A stretch of 21,819 bases of DNA from a virus, in IMG/VR virus record IMGVR_UViG_3300032288_002518, positions 1 through 21,819 of that record; one strand, given 5' to 3'. The position numbers and the translations under genes are program-made. A model generated the notes under the pieces. That model saw nothing but the letters and a program-made list of their open reading frames with translations, did no database searches and was not told the origin of the DNA. Below, in pieces: positions 5,514-21,819 of this stretch. Every line of letters starts with the position of its first letter. Positions within the stretch are counted from its first letter, which is position 1.

Positions 5514-7850
5514 ATGCCACTTGTCCCTGGCCTTAGCCCGTCAATCCGTGAGCCCGCCCCCGAGGCGCCTGAGCTGCCGCCCGGCGAAGAGGTTGTGATC
5601 ATGGAGGCCGATGAGGCCGCCGATCAGCCGCAGACCGATGACAGCGGCAACATCCTCTCCATTGAGCATCCCGATGGCAGCATCACGGTGCGGATTGATG
5701 GCCAGCCTCTGGAGCCTGCCGGTGGCAAGAAAGAAACCGGGTGGTTTGATAACCTCGTTGATCAAATCCCGCAGGCAGAGCTTTCACGCATTAGCGAAGA
5801 CCTGTTGCGCGGCATCCGCGATGATCTGCAAAGCCGCAGCGAGTGGATTGAAGATCGCGCCACTGGCTTGAAGCTGCTTGGCCTGAAGATTGAAATCCCC
5901 AGCCTTGCTGGTGCTGCTGACGGCGCGCCGGTTGAAGGCATGTCAAAGGTGCGGCACCCGCTGCTGCTGGAAGCAGTGCTGCGCTTCCAAGCCAATGCGC
6001 GGTCTGAGCTGCTGCCCACTGATGGGCCGGTGAAAATCCGTAATGACGATAATGATCCCAGCCTGCAAGAAGATGAGCTGGCAAATGCGCTGGAGCGTGA
6101 TCTTAATCACTACCTGACGGCGGTGGCGACCGAGTATTACCCAGACACTGACCGCATGTTGCTGATGCTCGGCTTCGGCGGTTCTGCGTTTAAGAAGGTG
6201 TACTACTGCCCGCTGCGCAATCGTCCCGTTTCCGAAACGGTTGATGCCGATGATCTGATCGTGAACAACGGCGCGACTGATTTGCAGAATGCAAAGCGTG
6301 TCACGCACCGCACGTTTCTGAAGCCCAGTATGGTGAAGCGCCTGCAAATCCTGGGCGTGTATCAAGACACCGATCTCAGCACACCAAACCCGCACAGCCT
6401 TGATAGCCTTCAGCGTGAGGAGAAGACGCAGGAAGGCATCTCGCCAGATGTCATGAACCCTGATGACCGGGATCGTGAAATCTATGAGTGCTACTGCGAG
6501 CTGAACATCCAGGGCTTTGAGCATACCTACAAAGGTAAAGAAACTGGCCTGGAAATTCCGTATCGCGTGACCATTGATGCATCGTCAAAGAAGATACTTT
6601 CGGTGGTGCGCAACTATGATGAAGACACTGCCGAGCTTCCTGAAGCCCGCAGTAATTTCGTCAAGTACACCTTCATGCCCGGCTTCGGCTTCTACGACAT
6701 CGGGCTGCTTCATATCCTTGGCAACACGACAAACGCGGTGACGGCTGCATGGCGTGAATTGTTGGACGCTGGGATGTACGCAAACTTTCCGGGCTTCCTG
6801 TTCGCAGACGCAGGCGCGAGGCAAAACACAAACATCTTCCGTGTGCCTCCGGGCGGCGGTGCCTTGGTGAAGACCAACGGCATGCCGATTCAGCAGGCGA
6901 TCATGCCGCTGCCGTACAAGGAGCCAAGCGGCGCGCTAATGCAGCTTGTGCAGAACATCGTTGAGACTGGGCAGCGCATTGGTGGCGTGAGTGAGATGAT
7001 GGTTGGCGAGGGCCGCGCTGACGCGCCGGTTGGCACCACGCTGGCGATGATTGAGCAGGCGCAGAAGATTCTGAATTCCGTCCACAAGCGCATGCATGCT
7101 GCCCAGGCGCAGGAATTCCAATTGCTGGCGGAATGCTTTCGTGAGAACCCAGAGAGCTTTTGGCAGCGCAAGCGCAAGAATGCCTATCCGTGGGATGAGC
7201 AGCGTTTCTTGCAGGCTCTGGACAATGCAGAGCTGGTGCCGCAGGCCGATCCCAACACTGCCAGCCACACGCAGCGCCTGATGAAGATCATGGCACTGAA
7301 GCAGCTTCAGCAAGCGCAGCCGGGGCTGTATGACCCGATTGCGATTGATACGGCGGCCTTGCAGGCTATTGGCTGGAATAACCCTGAGCAATTCTTTGCG
7401 CCGCCTGACGCGCAGGGCAAGCCGCCGCCTGAGCTGATGAAGGCGCAGGCTGAGATGCAGATTAAGAAGCAGGACGCCGACACGAAGGCTATGGAAGCCC
7501 AGGCGCGGGCGCAGAAGATGCAGGCCGACACGGCGCTGGAGGCCCAGCAGTTTGAGGCCAATCAGGCCATGCATGAGCAGCGCATGGGCTTGGATGTTTC
7601 TAAATTCCAAGTGCAGACTGGCCTTGAAGAGCGGGCCATGGGGGCCAAGACCGATGAAGCTATCGCCCGTGAACGCCTACAGCTCATTGACTTGGCGCAG
7701 AACCTTGCAGTGCATCCAGAGAGCGCGCCGGTTGTGGCGCCGCTTGTGCGGCCTGCCTTCCAGGCTGTCACGGAGCGCGAGCTAGAGGAGAGGGCGCGGC
7801 GCGGTAATCTGCCGCCGCTGCCAGGGCTTGGGGGAGCGCTGCCGCAATGA
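5514..7850 (+). CDS. portal protein, podovirus type
   Basis: ATG 5514 is chosen because GAGGGAG at 5502-5508 sits ahead of it. A GTG at 5484 would add ten residues without a good leader. The product has 778 residues, long as in P22-like portals. A disordered acidic N-terminus leads to the core (LEAVLRFQANARSELLPTDG; MLLMLGFGGSAFKKVYYCPL). Near residue 492 is EMMVGEGRADAPVGTTLAMI, a signature of podovirus portals. Residues about 637-735 form a long Ala/Gln/Lys/Glu helix (KAQAEMQIKKQDADTKAMEA...), matching the C-terminal barrel helix of the P22 portal. It forms a twelve-subunit ring at the capsid vertex that conducts DNA and holds the tail. It overlaps the next gene by ATGA. Confidence 0.9.
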   Translation: MPLVPGLSPSIREPAPEAPELPPGEEVVIMEADEAADQPQTDDSGNILSIEHPDGSITVRIDGQPLEPAGGKKETGWFDNLVDQIPQAELSRISEDLLRGIRDDLQSRSEWIEDRATGLKLLGLKIEIPSLAGAADGAPVEGMSKVRHPLLLEAVLRFQANARSELLPTDGPVKIRNDDNDPSLQEDELANALERDLNHYLTAVATEYYPDTDRMLLMLGFGGSAFKKVYYCPLRNRPVSETVDADDLIVNNGATDLQNAKRVTHRTFLKPSMVKRLQILGVYQDTDLSTPNPHSLDSLQREEKTQEGISPDVMNPDDRDREIYECYCELNIQGFEHTYKGKETGLEIPYRVTIDASSKKILSVVRNYDEDTAELPEARSNFVKYTFMPGFGFYDIGLLHILGNTTNAVTAAWRELLDAGMYANFPGFLFADAGARQNTNIFRVPPGGGALVKTNGMPIQQAIMPLPYKEPSGALMQLVQNIVETGQRIGGVSEMMVGEGRADAPVGTTLAMIEQAQKILNSVHKRMHAAQAQEFQLLAECFRENPESFWQRKRKNAYPWDEQRFLQALDNAELVPQADPNTASHTQRLMKIMALKQLQQAQPGLYDPIAIDTAALQAIGWNNPEQFFAPPDAQGKPPPELMKAQAEMQIKKQDADTKAMEAQARAQKMQADTALEAQQFEANQAMHEQRMGLDVSKFQVQTGLEERAMGAKTDEAIARERLQLIDLAQNLAVHPESAPVVAPLVRPAFQAVTERELEERARRGNLPPLPGLGGALPQ

Positions 7851-10800
7851 ACCACGATCCGCGCAAGGCTATTCGGCAGGCTATGATGATTGCGCGGCGC
7901 GAGGTGACTGCGCCGAATAAGGCTTCAATTGGTGGTCAGCGGCATATGCTGGCTTACATCACGCCTTATGAGGCAGAGCTTCTGATGCGGCGAGGTGGCT
8001 CTGGCCGCCTGACTGAATATGGTGTGCCTGCGTTTGATGATGGTAATGGCAATGGCCCTGGCGGTGGTCCTGGTAATGACTCCAATACAGACACTGCGAT
8101 GTCTGATCCAAATACGCAAACAGCTACATCAGGAAATGAAGGCACTGGCGCGGGGCCTACAGGGGCTGGTGCTGGGGGTATTGGAGAGACTGGCCCTGAC
8201 GAAACTGACGCCAATTTAAGTGGGCCTGTTGCCGCACCTGTGCCTACTGCGCCGACCGCTACTGTGCCATTTGGCACTCCTCCTTTTGGCCAAGCGCCTT
8301 CAGCTTTAGGTCTGGGCCTTATTGGCGGTCTTGCCGGGCTTGGTTTTGGTGTGCCGGGTCTTGGTACTGCGGCAGCAGGGATTGGCGCGGCTATTGATGC
8401 CAACAACCTGAATGAGCAGCTTGGCATGATGGGCTTGGAACAAAATATTGATGCTCAGTTGGCCGCAGTAAATGCTATGACCATGGGCGCATTTGGCAGG
8501 GGTGCAGCGGAACAATTTGGGCAAACGCTGGGCTTTGATGCGCTTGCAGAAGCGCCGATGTCTGCGTTTAGCCCGCCGCAAGACCTTCCTGGTCCTCCTG
8601 CTGATACGAGTAACTCACCCCCTTATTATGTTGATGTGAAGGCTCCGAAACAGCCGGTTATGCAAGCGGATGAAGAAGCGCAACGTGATTTGCTTTCCGC
8701 GCGCAATCCGATGCAGCAGCCTCTGATGTATGCTGACGGCGGGGCTGTTGGTTATGCCGATGGCGGCATGCCGGGCGATGATCCCACGGTGCAGCAGGCG
8801 CTGCGCCTATCTAGCCGGGTCACTGATAAGCGCACCCCGCAGCTTCAGGATGCCGCTGATCTGGTTGCTGCTGGGCAGATGACGCCGGAAGAATATCATG
8901 CCCTGGTGGGCCAGTATAAGCCCGTGCAGCCCTATACCAACGTGCCACCGATGGCTTCAGAGGCTGACTTGTTCCGTGGCTTGAGCGAAGATAAGCACGG
9001 CAAGGTTGGAGCAGAAAAGAATATTCCAGAAGGGCATCCGGTAGGATTGCGGCTTGATATCCCCGCCTATGATCGGCACGGCGTCTGGGCGCCTACCATC
9101 CATGATGGGCATGGCGATAAAGCCAAAGCAATTGCCCATGCACCCTTTGCCCATGTTTCTGATCCCGTCTTTAGTGTGTCCGAAAACAAGGCGCTGAATG
9201 TTGCTAGAGGCACAGCCAAATCGCCGTTTGCCAAGATCAATGGCTTTTGGAAACCAACATCTCCCGAAGATGCGCAGGCGATGGCGCAGGAATATCTATA
9301 TCATCCTGAATGGCGGCAGGTTGGCATGGACCCAGAGCGGCATAGTTTCTTCTATGATCGCGAAACCCGGCAGCCGATTGTAAGCGCAGAGGAAGCCTTG
9401 CAGGTAGGACCGTTGGTGCTGGCAAAGAACCCTCAATACGGCAAGGTAACTGATTACAAATATGCCGATGGTGGCGGCATTGATGATCCCACGGTGCAGC
9501 AGGCGCTTTCCTATACCAGGAAAGTAACCCCGATGGGGTTTTACAGTCATGCTGCTGATGTTGCTGCCAATCTGCCGCAGCAAAAAGGCACACCGCAGCA
9601 GATGCTTTCAATGCTGACCGCGCGTGGCGTTAAGCCGGATGAAATCAATAATTCCGGCGCGCAAGACTCATTTGGAAATCAAAAAACCGTGGCCAAGCAG
9701 GATTTGGTCGCGCATTTCCAGCAAAACATGCCTGACATTCAGGAGAAAAAATTTATACCCAGGCCGTCATGGGGGCGTTTGGCGGCATCAAATCATGACC
9801 CAGAAATTTATGCGGCTGCTGCTTTTCCAGCTAAATTTTTTGAATGGACAACGGCTTATATGGAGGATAAAAATCCAGAAGATATTGATTATCGTGAAAT
9901 ATTGCTTCATTCGCAGCCCAATTGGAATGAAAATGCAATAAATGATTGGCTTGAAACTCAAGCTTACAATAAAGCGTCTGATTTTGGCGCCATAAGCTCA
10001 ACAGACGATTGGAATAATCTTCCTGAAAATGAAAAAAATAAATTCACAAAGGACGCAGAACAAAGACTTAATTATCTAAAAACTACACTAGACTTCAAAA
10101 ATAGGAGCGAAAGAAGTGCGCTTTTAGACCCGGATAAAAATTTCTTCAGCACCCATTGGGCTGTGCCAAATGTAATTGGCCACATTCGCATGCATGACAG
10201 GGATGGTGAGGATACGCTGCACGTTGAAGAATTGCAGAGTGATTGGGGGCAGGCCAAGCGTAATGGTGAGGATGTTCCTGAGCATCCGTTGATCAACAAC
10301 ACAAACACCTGGACCGATCTTTTGCTAAAGCGCGTTTTGCGTGAGGCGGCTCGTCGCGGGTATAAGCGTATTGCTTGGACACCAGGGCAGGAGCAGGCGG
10401 AAAGGTACGATCTGAGCCAACAAATTCATCAATTAAATTATGACCCAGAAGACAAAGTGCTTTCCTATTATCACAAGGATCGCGGATGGGATGATCTTCC
10501 ACAGCGCGTTAATCCTGATGAAATACAAAAATATGTTGGGAAAGAGATTGCTAAAAATCTGCTTTCACAACCACCAAGCCCATTGAATGGGAGCCATTCC
10601 CTAGAAATAAACACGCAAGTCGGCGGCGAAGGCATGAGGGCCTATTACGACAAAATCGTTCCCGCGCGCATGACGGAAATAACGAAAAAGCTTGGCGCCC
10701 CGGTTAAGGTAGAGCCGTACAAAATAAATACCCGAGATGGCGAAAAAACATTACATTCAATTGTGGTGACGCCGGAGCTAAAATCTGCGGTGCTGAAGGG

Positions 10801-13198
10801 CATGCCAGTGTACAAAGATGGCGGGACTATTGGCTATGCTGATGGCGGTATGCCGGGCGATGATCCAACGGTGCAGCGGGCGCTAAATGTGACGCGCGAA
10901 TATCAAGACCCCCCGACGAAGCATATTGACGATTGGGCGTGGAAATCTCTTTCTGACGTTCAAAATCGCCTAGGCAATTTTCGCGAAATTCCATCTCATG
11001 TTCAGGCTTTTGGAAGCTACATGGATGAAATTGCCAAGCGCGCTGCCAATGAAGGGCTTTCTGCTCGCGATTTGATTAAGGCCTACACGATCACGCGGGC
11101 AAGTATTCAGCGCCGAGCCAATGATGTGGACCGTGTGCGCGCCGCCGGGCTTGATCTCCCCAAAAGCTTCACCGGTAAAATCCGTCCCGAAGGCGCCTTC
11201 GGTGAATGGCTGCACACCCGCGCTGGCCAGGACTATCTGAACAGCGCTGAACGTGGCGAGGTTAATGAGGATGCAATTGCCAATGCCGTCAAGATAATGA
11301 CGCCATTCGGCAAGCATGAGAAAGACATCCCTGACGCGCTGCGCTGGGCCGCAAACAATCTGCCCGGCAAAGAGCAGGAAATCTCCACTCTTGTTGCCAA
11401 TGCTATGCGTGGCGCCAGCGAACCCGCTGAGTGGCGCGCAATGGCCAAGGATGTGCGCGGCGTTGGCCCAAGCAAGGCAGGCTTCCTTGCCTCTCTGATG
11501 GGCCGTGGCGACCAACCCACGCTGGATGCCCGGCAGATTATAGAGCATACCGGCAGGCCAACATCTGAGGCCCAGGCATATCTGCGGCGCAAGGGCGGTG
11601 AAGGCGCGACCGAAGCCGTTGAGCGCCTTTCTGCCCGGCAGCAGGCCATGGATTTGCAATTGCCGGAAGAATTGAGGCCGTACTATCAGCATCTCGCCCA
11701 CCATGCTGTGTGGGATAAGGCCGCCGATGAAGTCACAACGCATGAAGATGTGATGAGCGCCATGCGTGGTGCGGCGCATGGTGGGGAAATTGATGAGGCG
11801 TCAATTCTCTCCCATCCGGTTGTGCATGCGCTACGGCTGGCTGGGCTGCCTAAGTTGGGTGATCCCCCGCGTGAGGGGTTGCGGGGCGGCGGTTCTCCTG
11901 ATGACGATGTTGTGCGTCAAGCATTGCAGCGTGTTGCAACACCATTCAGCGAAGACCCAGAGGTTGTGCAGCAAGCTTTACGGATTGCTTCATCATTGAA
12001 GGTGCCGCAAGGCGCAGAGTTTGGCACGGGGAGTTTTTATTCCGTAAAGCAGCCTATGGCTGTTTCTGACGTATCAACACAAATAGAGCCGTTGCCCGGC
12101 GTTGAGCTTGCTGCAAAGAACCCACTCTCTTGGGAAGGCTTTTACAAGCAAGGTAAGGGCGGCACGATATTAAATGTGGGCGGCGACCGCTCAAACCTTG
12201 GCCGCCTCACCCACATCAACAACAAAGAATTGGCGTGGCCTGTGGATTTGCATGCTGGCCCAAAATACATGATGGAGCCCAATCCAGGCGCCGTCTGGGC
12301 AAACAATCCATCCCACGCAACGGCACTTCGGAAGAAAATACTTGAGGCTGCGGAGAAGGGGCCTGTTTACGGTGTCTATGCCCCAATGGGTGCGCAAGCC
12401 GTTGATTCATCCCACAACATGTTTGATGCCGTGATGGCTCAAATACCTAAAGCTGGCGTTTCAAAGAAGGATGCTAAAGAGTTTGATGATGCCATCATGA
12501 ATGGCCTTCATGTGAAAGGTAATGACCCCAAGAATGTTGCTTTGCGTGAAAACGCAAAGAAAGAGCTTGAGGGATGGCCCGGCATTTTGAATGCCAAGGA
12601 AGCCAGTGAATATGCGCGCAATATGCCCGGCGGCCATCGTTCCGCGATTGTCAAATTCATGGATTCCAAAAAATGGCGCGACATGAATTTCCCAGCAATT
12701 GGGATCACGCGGGTCGCCATCACTGATCCTGAATTGAAGGCTGCGGCAGGCAATATGCTCGGCCATCGGATTGTGGAATTTGATCCGCAGAAAATTGCAG
12801 AAGAAACTAAGTTTCAGCATTCCACTTATACGTCACCCACAAGTGGTCGGTATGTGGGGGATGTGCCTTTGGTTCAACGGCATTATGCTATGCCGGATGT
12901 TGTTGAGCGCCTTCTTCAAAAGCCGACTGTTTCGGGGCAGGTTGTTCACCCATATTCCATGGACCCGCTTGGACGCTCCACGGCCCGCAAGCTTTTTGAA
13001 GAGCAGAAGCAGCTTCAGCCCATCAATGAGCGGATGATCAATACGATTGGTGAAGGCTTGGAGCGCCAAAAGGAATACGGTTTAAAAAAGGGTGGCACTG
13101 TTGTTGACCAAGCCCTTAGAATGACCGCACCAGACCGGCCTATGGTTGCCTTGGCCGACCTCTTTCAAAGGCAACTGCGGGGACGCCCGCCCTCCTAG
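7847..13198 (+). CDS. giant modular 'polyvalent'-type phage protein, 1783 residues
   Basis: This is the largest gene in the window and its start overlaps the portal stop by ATGA. Residues 1-70 look folded. Residues 70-150 are Gly/Pro/Thr-rich, and 151-185 form a Gly/Ala hydrophobic stretch ([14 protein letters not shown]). Four unlike globular parts then follow: A (about 399-535), B (559-988), C (1026-1316) and D (1390-1735). Before or between them lies a recurring linker of the form GG plus DDPTVQQAL, at 295-319, 539-554, 989-1013 and, more degenerate, 1312-1329, 1347-1378 and 1749-1757. Parts A, B and D resemble domains known to me from large polyvalent phage proteins, which are thought to enter the host with the DNA and act on it. 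The position between portal and head genes fits a virion-packed protein. Exact activities are unknown. Confidence 0.8.
8300..8401 (+). other. Gly/Ala hydrophobic segment (glycine-zipper-like) in the giant protein
   Basis: Residues 151-185 read like [19 protein letters not shown] and then [13 protein letters not shown]. There are no charges over about 33 residues, and Gly recurs every three to four positions. Such stretches can insert in membranes, and ejected head proteins of podoviruses often carry them. A membrane role is inferred. Confidence 0.5.
8753..8802 (+). repeat. linker repeat, copy 1 ([14 protein letters not shown])
   Basis: This 50-base unit encodes [16 protein letters not shown] plus the first bases of the next codon. 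It matches 10835-10884 at 46 of 50 bases, and its last 26 bases are the same as 9482-9507. An extra YADGG lies just upstream at residues 295-299. Confidence 0.85.
9041..9450 (+). other. domain A of the giant protein
   Basis: Residues 399-535 start [20 protein letters not shown] and end in [20 protein letters not shown] followed by PLVLAKN. I recall the same pattern (LDIPAY...H.VGM.P.RHSYFYD...P...[11 protein letters not shown]) in uncharacterised parts of large phage proteins. It looks alpha/beta, with conserved Tyr, Asp, Arg and His. Activity is unknown. Confidence 0.6.
9461..9507 (+). repeat. linker repeat, copy 2 ([14 protein letters not shown])
   Basis: This 47-base unit encodes [16 protein letters not shown] at residues 539-554. 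It is one codon shorter than copy 1 in the glycine-methionine-proline part. Its last 26 bases are the same as those ending copy 1. Confidence 0.85.
9521..10810 (+). other. domain B of the giant protein, AT-rich inside
   Basis: Residues 559-988 begin [20 protein letters not shown] with a following [15 protein letters not shown]. They continue with [15 protein letters not shown] (around residue 792) and [18 protein letters not shown] (around 842), and end [14 protein letters not shown]...[16 protein letters not shown]. This series is familiar from large phage proteins, including MuF-linked ones, but has no known reaction. Bases about 9770-10150 and 10400-10780 are clearly richer in A and T than the flanks. 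Confidence 0.65.
10835..10884 (+). repeat. linker repeat, copy 3 ([14 protein letters not shown])
   Basis: This unit encodes residues 997-1013, preceded by a YKDGGTIG variant at 989-996. It differs from copy 1 at four of 50 bases; three are silent and one changes Gln to Arg. Confidence 0.85.
10922..11794 (+). other. domain C of the giant protein, helical with HhH-like motif
   Basis: Residues 1026-1316 are almost all helical. At 1202-1229 they contain [16 protein letters not shown], then [13 protein letters not shown]. The GVGPSKA hairpin followed by an Asp about 18 residues later (D1227) recalls the helix-hairpin-helix and catalytic Asp of HhH-GPD DNA glycosylases. The order and spacing fit, but overall similarity cannot be tested by eye. 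Confidence 0.5.
12011..13060 (+). other. domain D of the giant protein
   Basis: Residues 1389-1738 start [16 protein letters not shown]. They include [20 protein letters not shown] with FDAVMAQIP (around 1514) and, later, [20 protein letters not shown] and [12 protein letters not shown] know this MGxxAxDxxxxMxDAxxxQI pattern from other large phage proteins, always without a known function. It is followed by a C-terminal tail with [12 protein letters not shown], the last linker-like motif. Confidence 0.55.
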
Positions 13199-13211
13199 GA
13201 GATCAAGTGCT

Positions 13212-15299
13212 ATGAGTGAAACCAGCGCAAAGTCCATTAGGGCAGCCCGCGAAGCCAAGGCAAAGCGCCTTGGTTCTGCCGGTGATCCCAAGCAGAAAGT
13301 GGATGCCTCCACCTGGACGCCGCCTGAGATGATGAACACGAATGCCAAGACCGGGCTGCGGCCTGTGTCCCGGCGCGCGTTCAAGCGTGGCGGCAAGGTG
13401 GGCATGGAGGCTGAAGGCTCCTGCGGCCCGACCCGTGCTGACCGCAAGCCGCGCAAGAGCGGCGGCGAGGCCAAGGCTTGGATGGCTGCCAAGATTAACC
13501 GCGATGTGAAGGAAGCCAACGCTGAGCTTGGCAAGCCGCATGTTGGGGGCATGAAGAAGGGTGGCCGGGCGAAGAAGCAAGGTGGCGGCAGCACGGCTGA
13601 CGATAACAGGCCGTTGATGGACCGTTCTGTGAAAGAGTACATTGATGCCATTAATGCGGAACGCGCCACGGGCATGACCGAGGGCGAGCGGATGGGAGCT
13701 ACTGCGCGCCGGGCGCCTGCGCCTGCGCGTGAAGCGCCGCTGATGGATCGCACGGTGCCGCAGTATATTGATGCGCGGAACCGTGAAGAGTTGATAAAGC
13801 AGCAGATGGAACGCGCTACCCCAAATCAGCGCAAGGCCGGTGGCCGCGCCAAGAAGCAAATGGGCGGCATGTCCGGTGATCCGCGTCAGGGCGCCGCTGC
13901 GATGATGCAGAAGGCCGCTGCCATGGGTAACGTGCCGCAAGATCGCATGGGCTTCAGCCGCCTCCAGAAGGGTCGTGCGGCCATGATGGCTGGGCTGAAG
14001 AAGGGCGGTAAGGTCAGCCACCAGGAGTGGGAGCATTCCAAGGCTGATCTGAAGCAGGACAAGAAGCTGGCCAAGAAGCATGGCATGAGCATGGAGAAGT
14101 GGGAGAAATCCGCTCTCGATGCGAAGCATGACAAGCAGCAGTCCACCAAAGGCCTGAAGAAGGGTGGCCGGGTTGGTAAATATTACGGCGGCCCTGCTGG
14201 TGTTATGCAGGATGTGGATCGTGAGCCAGATATGCCAGAGCCGCGTCCAATGCGTGGCCCAGCCTCTGCTGGGTATTTCAATGAGGCCGGTGGTTTCACA
14301 CCCACAAATGCCCCTGTGGAAGACATTCGGTATCCGTCTGATTATGCTGCATATCCCGTAAGGCGCGGCGCTGGTGCTTCTTTTGCTGAAACGGCTCCGA
14401 CAATGGATGAGTCTTATGTTCCCGCGCCTACGGCGCGCGGTGCCGGGCCTTCTTTTGTTGAAACGGTTGAAGCGGCGCCACGCCCAGCGCCGCGTCCTGC
14501 ACCACGCCCGGCGCCTCGGCGCGCAGCAGCGTCTGAAGCTGATGCACTAAATCAGCGTGAATTGGACCGTATTGCTCTTGGCACCGCTTTGGGTGACATG
14601 ATGCAGGGCGGTGATATTCAGCCCAGGCGCGGTTTCTTTGAGCGCCTAGGCCTGCGCCGCACCAATGAGACTGGCGAAGGCGCTCCCAGCACCGGCAGCC
14701 TGTCTGGCGATCTTCGCGCGCTTGGCCGTACCCTTGGCTTCAAAAAGGGCGGTAAGGTGATGGAAGGCAACTACACGGGCGGCACCCGCCCGACTGGTGG
14801 CCGGATTGCGAAGAAGGCTGGTGGTCGCGCCAAGGGCAAGACCAACATCATCATCTCGATCAATCCGGGTGCCGGTGCTGCCCAACAGCAGGGTATGATG
14901 CCGCCGGGCAACCTGCCGCCGGGTGCTGGCATGCGTCCTGGCGCTGGCGCTATGCCGGTGCCTGTTGCTGGCCCTCCTGGGGCTGGTGCGCCGCCTCCGA
15001 TGCCGATGCCTGTTCCTGTGCCTATGCCTATGGGCGCAGGCGCTGGCGGGCCTCCTATGCCGCCTCCTGGCGCGATGCCGCGCAAGGCCGGTGGCCGCGC
15101 GTATCGTTCCTACAAGGACATGGATGCGGGTGCCGGTAGTGGGCTTGGCCGTCTGGAAAAGACCGAAATCCAAGAACACAAGCGCGGTGAGCGTAAAGCC
15201 GGTGGCCGCACCTACCGTTCTTACAAGGACATGGATGCCGGTGCTGGCAGCGGGCTTGGCCGGTTAGAGAAAACCGAAATCCAAGCGCGCAAGAGGTGA
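13212..15299 (+). CDS. basic, low-complexity repeat protein with KxGG motifs
   Basis: ATG 13212 follows AGGAG at 13197-13201; an extension to 13146 overlaps the giant gene. The 695 residues are rich in Lys, Arg, Gly, Ala, Pro and Met and mostly disordered. About ten copies of a K/R-x-GG-K/R motif occur ([37 protein letters not shown] and others). [13 protein letters not shown] and [13 protein letters not shown] form an internal pair, and a [10 protein letters not shown] run and a Met/Pro/Gly tract follow. A 37-residue unit is repeated in tandem at the C-terminus. The charge suggests DNA contact or charge balancing inside the head. It lies between the giant gene and the capsid assembly genes. 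No family is recognised. Confidence 0.78.
15081..15296 (+). repeat. tandem 111-base repeat, two copies
   Basis: Copies begin at 15081 and 15192. Each encodes [20 protein letters not shown] and then [11 protein letters not shown] and a short basic tail. The protein copies differ at only a few positions (Ala/Thr near the start, different tails). The second copy ends at the stop codon. Confidence 0.9.
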
Positions 15300-18435: not shown

Positions 18436-19350
18436 ATGGCTGTAAATCTTTCGGCTATTAAAGACCTGCTCCTCCCCGGTCTGCGTGGTGTTGAAGGCAA
18501 GTACGAGATGATCCCATCTCAGTACGACAAAATCTTCACCAAGCATGACTCCAAGATGGCGCTCGAACGTACCGCTGAAATGCGTTACCTCGGCCTTGCC
18601 CAGCTCAAGACCGAAGGCGGCCAGACCGCTTTTGATAACGGCGCGGGTGAGCGTTTCGTCTATAACCAGGAGCATACGGAAATTGCGTTGGGTTACGCGA
18701 TCACCCGCAAGGCGATTGACGATAACCTGTACAAGACGCAGTTCCATCCGTCGAACCTCGGCCTGATTGAATCCTTTCAGCAGACCAAGGAAATCTACGG
18801 CGCGAACATCCTGAACACGGCGACGACCTACAATGCTTCCATCGGCGGTGACGGCGTGGCGCTTTGCTCCACCTCTCACCCGATTGATGGTGGCACGGTG
18901 GCGAACCGCCCGACCACGGATGTTGGCCTGAACGAAGCGACCCTGCTGAACGCGATGATTTCCGTGCGTACCAACTTCAAGGACCAAGCGGGCCTGAAGG
19001 TGTTTGCGCGGGCGCGTAAGCTGATCGTTCCGCCGCAGCTTGAACCGACCGCGATCCGTCTGACGAAGACTGAGCTGCGGCCCGGCACTGCCGACAACGA
19101 TGTCAATGCCATTATGATGACGGCGGGTGGTCTGCCGGAATCCTATATGGTCAACGACTTCTTGACCTCGCAGTATGCTTGGTTCCTGCTGACGAACATT
19201 GATGGCCTCTCCTACATGGAGCGCATCAAGTTTGAAACGGATATGCAGGTCGATTTCGTGACCGACAACCTCCTGGTCAAGGGCTATGAGCGGTACTCTT
19301 TCGGGTACTACAACTGGCGCTCGATCTTCGGTTCGTTCCCGACTTCGTGA
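18436..19350 (+). CDS. major capsid protein (HK97-fold, Mu gpT-like)
   Basis: This 304-residue protein is preceded by AAGGAGGGC (18420-18428). It begins MAVNLSAIKDLLLPGLRGVE and runs on with SKMALERTAEMRYLGLAQLK and YNQEHTEIALGYAITRKAID. The middle has ANILNTATTYNASIGGDGVA and LCSTSHP, a pattern of Mu gpT-like capsid proteins. The end, YAWFLLTNIDGLSYMERIKF and later KGYERYSFGYYNWRSIFGS, matches the gpT-like C-terminus that I recall (Arg-Tyr-Ser-Phe-Gly...Asp/Asn-Trp-Arg). It is the main shell subunit. The short length, with no N-terminal delta domain, fits use of a separate scaffold, which is encoded at 16041. It is probably very highly expressed. Confidence 0.88.
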   Translation: MAVNLSAIKDLLLPGLRGVEGKYEMIPSQYDKIFTKHDSKMALERTAEMRYLGLAQLKTEGGQTAFDNGAGERFVYNQEHTEIALGYAITRKAIDDNLYKTQFHPSNLGLIESFQQTKEIYGANILNTATTYNASIGGDGVALCSTSHPIDGGTVANRPTTDVGLNEATLLNAMISVRTNFKDQAGLKVFARARKLIVPPQLEPTAIRLTKTELRPGTADNDVNAIMMTAGGLPESYMVNDFLTSQYAWFLLTNIDGLSYMERIKFETDMQVDFVTDNLLVKGYERYSFGYYNWRSIFGSFPTS

Positions 19351-19407: not shown

Positions 19408-19860
19408 ATGGGTGCTACTCACTTTAGCGGTCCTGTTGTTTCGGGGACTTTGCAGCAGGGTGAAACCGATGGTCCTAACCAGGGCTTTTCGGTTCTTTCC
19501 CAGTCTACTTCGATCACCCAAAACAGCACGACTGCTGTTTCTTCCACGCTGTACATCCCGGCTGGCTCTCGGATCGTTGATTTCAACATTGACGTTCTGA
19601 CGGCGTACAACTCTGCCACTTCTGCGACCCTGACCATCGGCACTGCTGCCGCTGGTACGCAGTATGTTGGCAGCATTGACGCCAAGACTGCCGGGCGCGC
19701 TGCGATCACCTACACGGCGGCGCAGCTTGCAGCAATGAATGGCGTCAGCGTCCTTGGTGTCGCTGCGCCTACCACTGCTCCGGTAGTGATCACTGTAACC
19801 CCGGTCGGCGCGACATCTGCTGGATATGTCGTGGTGACTGTTCTTTATGTCCAGCAGTAA
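19408..19860 (+). CDS. small virion structural protein, 150 residues
   Basis: AGGAAAGGG lies before ATG 19408. The product begins MGATHFSGPVVSGTLQQGET. It is almost all Gly, Ser, Thr, Ala and Val in beta-strand patterns (TSITQNSTTAVSSTLYIPAG, RIVDFNIDVLTAYNSATSAT, VVITVTPVGATSAGYVVVTV), with very few charges. This fits a jelly-roll or immunoglobulin-like decoration protein on the capsid surface. The FSGPVVSG opening resembles short phage structural proteins encoded next to capsid genes. Exact role unknown. Its stop overlaps the AAGGAGGA leader of the next gene. Confidence 0.7.
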   Translation: MGATHFSGPVVSGTLQQGETDGPNQGFSVLSQSTSITQNSTTAVSSTLYIPAGSRIVDFNIDVLTAYNSATSATLTIGTAAAGTQYVGSIDAKTAGRAAITYTAAQLAAMNGVSVLGVAAPTTAPVVITVTPVGATSAGYVVVTVLYVQQ

Positions 19861-19871
19861 GGAGGACCGCT

Positions 19872-20177
19872 ATGAAGGGTCGTAAGGGTCGCGCGGCTGG
19901 TGGTGAGTCCCCGGCTGCTGGCACGAAGGATTGGGAACAGGATATCTCTTCCAAGCCTACGCGCCGTGTGAACGCTCCCAGCATCATGAATGCTGCTGAA
20001 GAGCGCAAGCGTGGTGGTAAGGCCATGGGCAAAATCCATGGCGCTGCTGCCAAGATGCATGCTGGCCGCAAGGCTCGCAAGGCTGGTGGTAAGGTGGGTT
20101 CCAACATGAACCCGCTTTCCAGCGCGCATGCTGGCACCCCTGCCAAGGGCCGCAAGCTCGATAGCATGGGTCAGTGA
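19872..20177 (+). CDS. small basic KxGG protein, 101 residues
   Basis: AAGGAGGA (19859-19866) precedes ATG 19872. The product starts MKGRKGRAAGGESPAAGTKD and is strongly basic and disordered, with many Ala and Gly. KRGGKAMGKIHGAAAKMHAG is followed closely by RKARKAGGKVGSN. The same KxGG signature occurs about ten times in the protein at 13212-15299 and in the giant protein's tail, which suggests a shared origin or job. Condensing or neutralising packaged DNA is one option. It is followed by the UUCG hairpin. No known family. Confidence 0.65.
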   Translation: MKGRKGRAAGGESPAAGTKDWEQDISSKPTRRVNAPSIMNAAEERKRGGKAMGKIHGAAAKMHAGRKARKAGGKVGSNMNPLSSAHAGTPAKGRKLDSMGQ

Positions 20178-20200: not shown

Positions 20201-20219
20201 CTTTCCTTTGGAGGGGATC

Positions 20220-20483
20220 ATGGCTGGAGCTTGGACGCGCAAGGAAGGGAAGAACCCTGAAGGCGGCCTGAATGCAAAGGGTCGCGCGTCACTGCGCGCA
20301 GAAGGTCGTGATATCAAGCCGCCTGTTTCACGGGAAACAGCGCAGAAGAGTGAAATGGCAGCCGCACGGCGCCGCAGTTTTTGTAGCCGGATGGAAGGCA
20401 TGAAGGCCAAGCTGACCTCTGCCGCCACCGCGCGTGATCCTGACAGCAGGATCAATAAATCGCTTCGGAAGTGGGATTGCTGA
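20220..20483 (+). CDS. small conserved phage protein (WTRKEGKNPEGGLN family)
   Basis: GGAGGGG at 20210-20216 supports ATG 20220; an upstream TTG at 20178 would run through the hairpin. The 87 residues begin MAGAWTRKEGKNPEGGLNAK, then GRASLRAEGRDIKPP. They end SFCSRMEGMKAKLTSAATAR and DPDSRINKSLRKWDC. I recall this pattern, including SFC.RM.GM...LTS and RINK.LRKW.C, from many marine phage genomes, where it is a domain of unknown function. It is basic, with two Cys. It opens a set of three small genes spaced by one base and then an overlap. Function unknown. Confidence 0.78.
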   Translation: MAGAWTRKEGKNPEGGLNAKGRASLRAEGRDIKPPVSRETAQKSEMAAARRRSFCSRMEGMKAKLTSAATARDPDSRINKSLRKWDC

Positions 20484-20484
20484 C

Positions 20485-20655
20485 ATGAGCAAAGCCATTC
20501 CTGAAAATCCGCGCCTCTGGGCTTCGGTGAAAACCCAGGCCAAGAAGAAGTTTGATGTTTACCCCTCTGCCTATGCCAATGCCTGGGCTTCGAAGGAATA
20601 CAAAGCCAAAGGCGGCAAGTGGAGCGGCGCTGACAATAGGGTCAGCAAGAAATGA
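20485..20655 (+). CDS. small conserved phage protein (YPSAYANAWASKEYK family)
   Basis: ATG 20485 starts one base after the preceding stop; the in-frame extension to 20434 overlaps that gene. The 56 residues are MSKAIPENPRLWASVKTQAK, then KKFDVYPSAYANAWASKEYK and KGGKWSGADNRVSKK at the end. The NP.LW...K..AK.KF.VYPSAYAN.WA.KEYK pattern is a short domain that I know from phages and some large viruses, with unknown function. It is basic and helical in the middle. Its stop overlaps the next ATG (ATGA at 20652-20655), so the two are translated together. Confidence 0.75.
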   Translation: MSKAIPENPRLWASVKTQAKKKFDVYPSAYANAWASKEYKAKGGKWSGADNRVSKK

Positions 20656-20879
20656 AGGGTGGCCTGGGCAAGTGGTTTGGCGAGAATTGGCGTGACATCA
20701 AGACCGGCGAGGAATGTGGTCGCAGCGGGTCTGAGAAAGCCAAGAGGGCCTACCCTGCCTGCCGCCCGGCTGCTGCGGCTTCTCGCATGACATCAAGCCA
20801 GAAGGTGATGATGTCGGCCAAGAAGACCGGATCAGCAAGGCAATCTTGGCCCGTGACACCAACGGGTAAAAAGAAGTAA
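20652..20879 (+). CDS. small conserved phage protein (GLGKWF..CGR..YPACRP family)
   Basis: This encodes 75 residues, with a start in an ATGA overlap. They begin MKGGLGKWFGENWRDIKTGE and contain ECGRSGSEKAKRAYPACRPA, then a Ser/Lys/Thr-rich tail ending TPTGKKK. The GLGKWF...W.DIK....CGR....K..YP.CRP signature is one that I recall as widespread in marine phages, often beside the two preceding families. Two Cys near the centre could bind metal only by pairing with another chain, and that is a guess. It is probably virion-associated or an assembly factor. No function is known. Confidence 0.75.
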   Translation: MKGGLGKWFGENWRDIKTGEECGRSGSEKAKRAYPACRPAAAASRMTSSQKVMMSAKKTGSARQSWPVTPTGKKK

Positions 20880-21562: not shown

Positions 21563-21819
21563 ATGACCACGAGCGGGACATATGCGTTTGATCCATCGCT
21601 CGGCGAGATTGTTTTGTATGCCTATAATCTGATTGGCATACGCAACACCTCATTAACGCAGGAACACATGGAAGCCGCTCGCATGGCTTCCAACATGGTG
21701 CTTGCGAATTGGTCAAACAAAGGTGTGAACCTCTGGACCGTTGATTTGCAGACGGTGACGCTGATTGCCGGGCAGGCCACTTATACCGTGCCTGAAAACA
21801 CGGTGATCATGCTGGATGC
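21563..21819 (+). CDS. head-tail connector / tail accessory factor, P22 gp4-like (N-terminal part)
   Basis: ATG 21563, with GAGGTAAG upstream, opens a frame that runs off the window; 85 complete codons are visible. It begins MTTSGTYAFDPSLGEIVLYA and continues YNLIGIRNTSLTQEHMEAAR, MASNMVLANWSNKGVNLWTV and DLQTVTLIAGQATYTVPENT. The helical GEIV..A.NLIGIR....TQEHM..AR..AN..L..W opening, followed by a VNLW.V and Y.VP strand pair, is the pattern of P22 gp4-type connector proteins. These form the ring below the portal and close the DNA-filled head. Only the N-terminal part is seen. Confidence 0.8.
   Translation, partial: MTTSGTYAFDPSLGEIVLYAYNLIGIRNTSLTQEHMEAARMASNMVLANWSNKGVNLWTVDLQTVTLIAGQATYTVPENTVIMLD

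Follow-up and report, generated by a model that had tools for sequence, protein, structure and literature searches.

Our analyses indicate that three small linked viral genes, here called g1, g2 and g3, probably encode basic protein modules that become part of the prohead and are kept inside the capsid, most likely on the packaged DNA, and that are perhaps ejected with it. The genes lie in a linear IMG/VR virus record of 21,819 bases, the whole of which we refer to as the window. Relevant features of the window are as follows:

18436..19350, + strand: major capsid protein gene (phrog_371; product shares 37% identity with the capsid protein of DSL-LC04)
19408..19860, + strand: gene for a cement-like protein (31% identical to the annotated DSL-LC04 cement protein)
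19872..20177, + strand: gene for a neighboring small basic protein (101 amino acids, pI 11.3, charge +14.8)
20210..20216, + strand: ribosome binding site GGAGGGG before g1, read directly from the sequence
20220..20483, + strand: g1, open reading frame for a basic DUF6321 protein of 87 amino acids (PF19846, 68.9 bits; model pLDDT 94.1)
20485..20655, + strand: g2, open reading frame with its ATG at 20485, for a basic protein of 56 amino acids, the predicted first module of DUF5872 (PF19197 positions 1-41)
20652..20655, + strand: ATGA overlap of the g2 stop and g3 start, read directly from the sequence
20652..20879, + strand: g3, open reading frame for a basic protein of 75 amino acids with two cysteines, the predicted second module of DUF5872 (PF19197 positions 53-100)
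21563..21817, + strand: start of a head-tail adaptor gene (product 39% identical to the annotated DSL-LC04 adaptor)

The tight linkage and basic character originally described for these genes are borne out. A single base separates the end of g1 (20483) from the start of g2 (20485), and g2 and g3 share the ATGA at 20652-20655; the same -4 spacing is found in 81 of the 163 g2-g3 pairs examined, a set that was not dereplicated. The g1, g2 and g3 proteins have isoelectric points of 10.7, 10.1 and 10.5 and charges of +10.5, +8.5 and +11.5, and their masses are 6.3-9.6 kDa; small size and basic character are features that they share with T4-type internal head proteins. The sequence signatures first noticed in each gene are kept in relatives. 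Codon changes relative to eight related loci are mostly synonymous in all three genes (for example, 29 synonymous and 2 nonsynonymous codons in g1, 17 and 3 in g2, and 29 and 13 in g3, in the comparison with locus L012). The exception is g1 of loci L005, L010 and L011, which has 15-16 nonsynonymous codons relative to the window. We observed that the C-terminal half of DUF6321 in these three loci is sharply different while the adjacent g2 is still close, a pattern that suggests recombination inside g1.

Pfam searches assign g1 to DUF6321 (PF19846): it scores 68.9 bits, against a gathering score of 28.5, and covers positions 1-72 of the 72-position profile. Taken alone, g2 and g3 score 26.7 and 25.2 bits against DUF5872 (PF19197) – each below the gathering score of 27.5, so that neither single window protein reaches it – and each matches about half of the 116-position profile (1-41 and 53-100, respectively). 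A search of the whole record placed profile positions 1-44 and 46-100 side by side and in order on the + strand, and two g2-g3 fusions in relatives exceed the DUF5872 cut-off with 45.2 and 46.3 bits. The window genes had no match in NCBIfam. The original view of three separate families thus needs amending: g2 and g3 belong to one Pfam family, though its halves act as separate modules.

The modules are found as separate genes, as pair fusions in either order, and as three-in-one open reading frames (loci L256, L257 and L283). The predicted structure of DUF5872 has a pLDDT of 79.6 and a pTM of 0.48, and is least confident in the linker and at the C-terminus. The low-confidence linker and the occurrence of the reversed g3-g2 order argue that DUF5872 may be better described as two modules than as one domain. 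Public annotation omits or mis-calls g3 in the phages DSL-LC04 (L295:5179-5388) and CRP-207 (L001:4702-4911).

We examined how often the modules occur together. Using tblastn, we found relatives of g1 in 504 of 50,697 phage records searched, mostly cyanophages, relatives of g2 in 13 phage records (E up to 0.1), and relatives of g3 in 4. Among 58 g3 loci, g2 lies just upstream of g3 in 57 (within 20 nt in 56, at 170 nt in L062); in the remaining one, g3 lies about 80 bases from the start of the contig. g1 is present on 48 of the 58 stretches with g3, at distances from 9 bases to 4.7 kb. Because the underlying short stretches were chosen by best match, the counts in a larger set of 231 dereplicated loci (289 before collapsing) are not unbiased frequencies: the gap between g2 and g3 is up to 60 nt in 112, 61-300 nt in 3 and larger in 8; the two share one open reading frame in 19 (10 in the order g2-g3 and 9, in longer frames, in the order g3-g2); g2 alone is found in 11, g3 alone in 1, g3 before g2 in another frame in 1, and neither in 76. 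Of 79 measured distances between g1 and g2, 44 do not exceed 60 nt. DUF6321 is present in 12 of the 15 long records with g2 or g3. Conversely, profile models A1, A3 and A7, which recovered three of three positive controls, detected g2 or g3 in none of 12 long records with g1 only. On these counts (57 of 58, 12 of 15 and 0 of 12), g2 and g3 are a near-obligate pair and g1 is a frequent but independent companion – co-occurrence as originally proposed for g2 and g3, and in one direction only for g1.

Fold searches matched neither g1 nor DUF5872 to a DNA-binding fold. The DUF6321 model (five helices; pLDDT 94.1, pTM 0.77) gave 4 matches against the PDB at E values of 7-10, and a second look gave a best Z of 3.4 over 43 residues; the DUF5872 model gave one match at E 9.5. 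Sequence searches with single g1 and g3 queries and with g1 and g2/g3 profiles returned no convincing relative of solved structure, the best matches being a PARN chain (E 0.014) and Rv2827c (E 0.17). A confident predicted model that lacks a solved-structure match does not prove a new fold. A BFVD search gave 22 matches at E ≤ 0.001: DUF6321 proteins, the S-SCSM1 'Virion protein', a single protein labelled 'AAA domain containing', and unnamed entries.

T4-like cyanophages carry the same modules in chained form. The 517-amino-acid S-SCSM1_29 contains a g3 module (E 1.5e-8), a g2 module (domain E 8.8e-5), and a g1 module (E 1.1e-34), and S-BM3 SBM3_00185 contains g1 and g2 modules plus a stretch resembling g3 whose match is not significant (E 0.29). 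A search for papers on T4-GC 119, the group to which these proteins belong, found nothing. We observed a small cysteine-containing segment, C-W-x-G-Y ... N-C-V, that recurs between the DUF modules of S-SCSM1_29, SBM3_00185 and the S-E7 T4-GC119 protein (L298, L294 and L301), and that by eye looks like a further bead in the sequence.

The T4 prohead protease cuts after L/I-X-E, according to the available text of PMC9026906. In the chained form, phi-x-E motifs that resemble prohead-protease sites are enriched shortly before the modules. Across 455 loci, considering modules that lie 80 or more residues inside an open reading frame and motifs within 10 residues upstream, [LIVMF]xE precedes 51 of 84 g1, 31 of 39 g2 and 32 of 58 g3 modules, against means of 16.1, 8.5 and 11.4 for random positions in the same frames. 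In loci with T4-like neighbors, whose contexts are less than 50% identical but which are related by descent, so that counts are not independent, the figures are 30 of 42, 10 of 11 and 23 of 27 (random 6.8, 1.6 and 4.2). The strict T4 motif [LI]xE is less enriched in these loci, at 11 of 42, 8 of 11 and 3 of 27 (random 3.2, 0.7 and 1.8). Replacing E with D, K or S gave no enrichment upstream of the modules in the T4-neighbor loci, and [LIVMF]xQ is in excess there before g1 alone (10 versus 3.2 random). Loci without recognized T4 neighbors, a mix of unlabelled T4-like contigs and read-through upstream of stand-alone genes, gave 7 of 23 for g1, 12 of 18 for g2 and 6 of 15 for g3 (random 2.6, 3.0 and 2.4). 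From this sequence pattern we infer that the prohead protease would cut at the cyanophage phi-x-E sites.

Virion proteomics provides a further line of evidence. S-SCSM1_29 is named 'virion protein' in a record that tags tail proteins, and not the terminase, in this way. The available portion of the S-SCSM1 paper reports 45 virion proteins identified by mass spectrometry (MS), and we read the tag, from record and paper together, as denoting MS detection. In the accessible part of the S-CREM2 MS table, the DUF6321 protein ORF137 is represented by 4 unique peptides (4.1% coverage, with coverage of the module itself not established) and ORF160, a weak g2 match (E 5.9e-4), by 7 peptides (13.1% coverage). 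The DUF6321 protein of S-SZBM1 (SSZBM1_192) is absent from the available text and table of the S-SZBM1 MS paper, and the accessible portion of a P-SSP7 scale-up paper contains no virion proteomics; the P-SSP7 genome itself has no g1, g2 or g3 module by our module models.

Gene placement links the modules to head assembly in several phages. The lake phage genome DSL-LC04, whose adaptor carries a Pam1-type annotation, has the same order as the window (capsid, cement, g1, g2, g3, adaptor), with g3 unannotated. The T7-like P-SCSP2 has g2, g3 and g1 between its scaffold and capsid genes, and in P-SCSP1u a DUF6321 gene directly follows the capsid gene. Locus L283 encodes a single protein, between portal and capsid-type genes, that has a head maturation protease domain (phrog_9427, E 4.7e-49) at its N-terminus, followed by all three modules; the contigs of loci L272 and L289 have DUF6321 fused to the same type of protease. 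Placement outside the head cluster also occurs: beside holin and tail genes in MinM2, in a run of small genes in Greip, and, for g2 and g3, between lysozyme and terminase genes in CRP-207. The gene before g2 in CRP-207 was considered as a DUF6321 gene and rejected using the module models. Four of the 455 loci (L257:5069-5557, L086:5503-5946, L278 and L279) have a Dps/ferritin-like gene that either immediately precedes the modules or lies no more than about 1 kb from them; tested on L257, this gene matches both PF00210 and phrog_3636, a DNA binding protein family. The joint virion or assembly role originally proposed from the linkage and position of the genes gains support from the shared open reading frames in L256, L257 and L283, the protease fusion in L283, and the tagged T4-like protein.

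The modules could instead aid the terminase or portal during DNA packaging and not be retained in the head. In P-HM2 and S-BM3, the small and large terminase genes flank that for T4-GC119, g2-g3 is a few genes upstream of the terminase in CRP-207, and in C72C1 g2-g3 precedes a 1.4-kb gene upstream of the portal gene, all of which would fit such a role. We nevertheless regard it as unlikely: proteins with these modules appear in virion MS lists while the terminase subunits of S-CREM2 are absent from the available list, modules are fused to a head maturation protease, and those of the window, DSL-LC04 and P-SCSP2 sit in the capsid/adaptor interval.

It is similarly improbable that the modules are early DNA- or RNA-binding proteins made in the cell for host take-over, with their proximity to head genes incidental. 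Their small size, basic character and variable placement (MinM2, Greip) fit this idea, as does the frequent occurrence of DUF6321 without the other two modules, but the chains with phi-x-E sites, the protease fusions and the virion MS data speak against it. Modules carried inside the capsid could still act in take-over once ejected.

The position of the genes between cement-like and adaptor genes raises the prospect of ordered structural parts of the capsid or neck, such as cement, decoration or connector proteins. This seems very unlikely given that g1-g3 are strongly basic while the window's capsid, cement and 20916 proteins are acidic, and that a P-SCSP1u cryo-EM paper, in its available text, models only the capsid, portal, adaptor, nozzle and fibre – with no DUF6321 protein among them, despite the DUF6321 gene adjoining the capsid gene. 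The annotation 'Gp114 RecA-like recombination protein' on the DUF6321 proteins of MinM2 (L003:5986-6231) and Greip (L296:3876-4127) is almost certainly wrong and we reject it, as the module has only about 80 residues and no RecA family is among the Pfam (E up to 1) or PHROG (E up to 0.1) matches; because S-RIM8 names its chained homologue gp114, the label looks like a transfer error.

We return to the reading of g1-g3 as modules of the capsid interior. The modules would enter the prohead during assembly, remain within the capsid, most likely on the packaged DNA, and might leave the head together with the DNA at ejection, thus working like the internal proteins of T4. The window would make the beads as separate genes, and T4-like phages as one chain cut during head maturation. 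Entry of the window's stand-alone proteins into the head is our inference, and DNA association and ejection are suggested by their charge and the analogy to T4. The window has no recognized prohead protease.

The 19872..20177 protein, which has no family match in Pfam or PHROGs, is possibly part of the same cassette as g1-g3. We observed short repeated linkers ending in GG (such as YADGG and KKGG) in the window at 7847-13195, 13146-15296 and 19872-20174, with 11, 17 and 6 pattern matches, respectively, versus shuffle means of 1.5, 2.5 and 0.6; the pattern is absent from the portal, large terminase, capsid and 16041-16949 proteins. In loci L077 and L103, DUF6321 follows such a linker. In phages of this type, the motif may delimit the beads.

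A broader proposal, which we advance tentatively, is that aquatic phages draw on a common small alphabet of interchangeable modules for the capsid interior. DUF5872 extends to an algal giant virus: the available part of PMC12085832 lists one DUF5872 gene (71,244-71,759) in the algal virus CpV-BQ1. Free genes, or chains cut between beads by the prohead protease, might then constitute a polyprotein strategy that provides the head with DNA-associated proteins in a defined mixture. DUF6321 is a very common aquatic phage family without an assigned function – a literature search found no paper naming it and one naming DUF5872 – and the bead model would supply a role. It would also explain why cyanophages encode long proteins between their terminase genes, and point to a way in which phages could fill heads with mixtures of small proteins.

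Comparison with characterized and annotated systems clarifies what is distinctive about the window. DUF6321 is a stand-alone gene here, but in the T4-like phages examined it forms a C-terminal or internal part of larger proteins. DUF5872, split into two overlapping genes in the window, is elsewhere one chain or occurs as reversed halves with linkers. The T4-GC119 proteins S-SCSM1_29 and SBM3_00185 have the same modules as the window, but in one chain with phi-x-E sites before the modules. The internal head proteins of T4 are described in the available text of PMC9026906 as basic, 8-20 kDa in size, and DNA-bound at low salt; IPI, IPII and IPIII are, like g1-g3, small and basic, and they reside in the head and mature through cleavage after Glu by a protease (PMC9026906, available text). 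Each T4 internal protein has one N-terminal propeptide, whereas the g1-g3 modules come as several beads per chain or as free genes.
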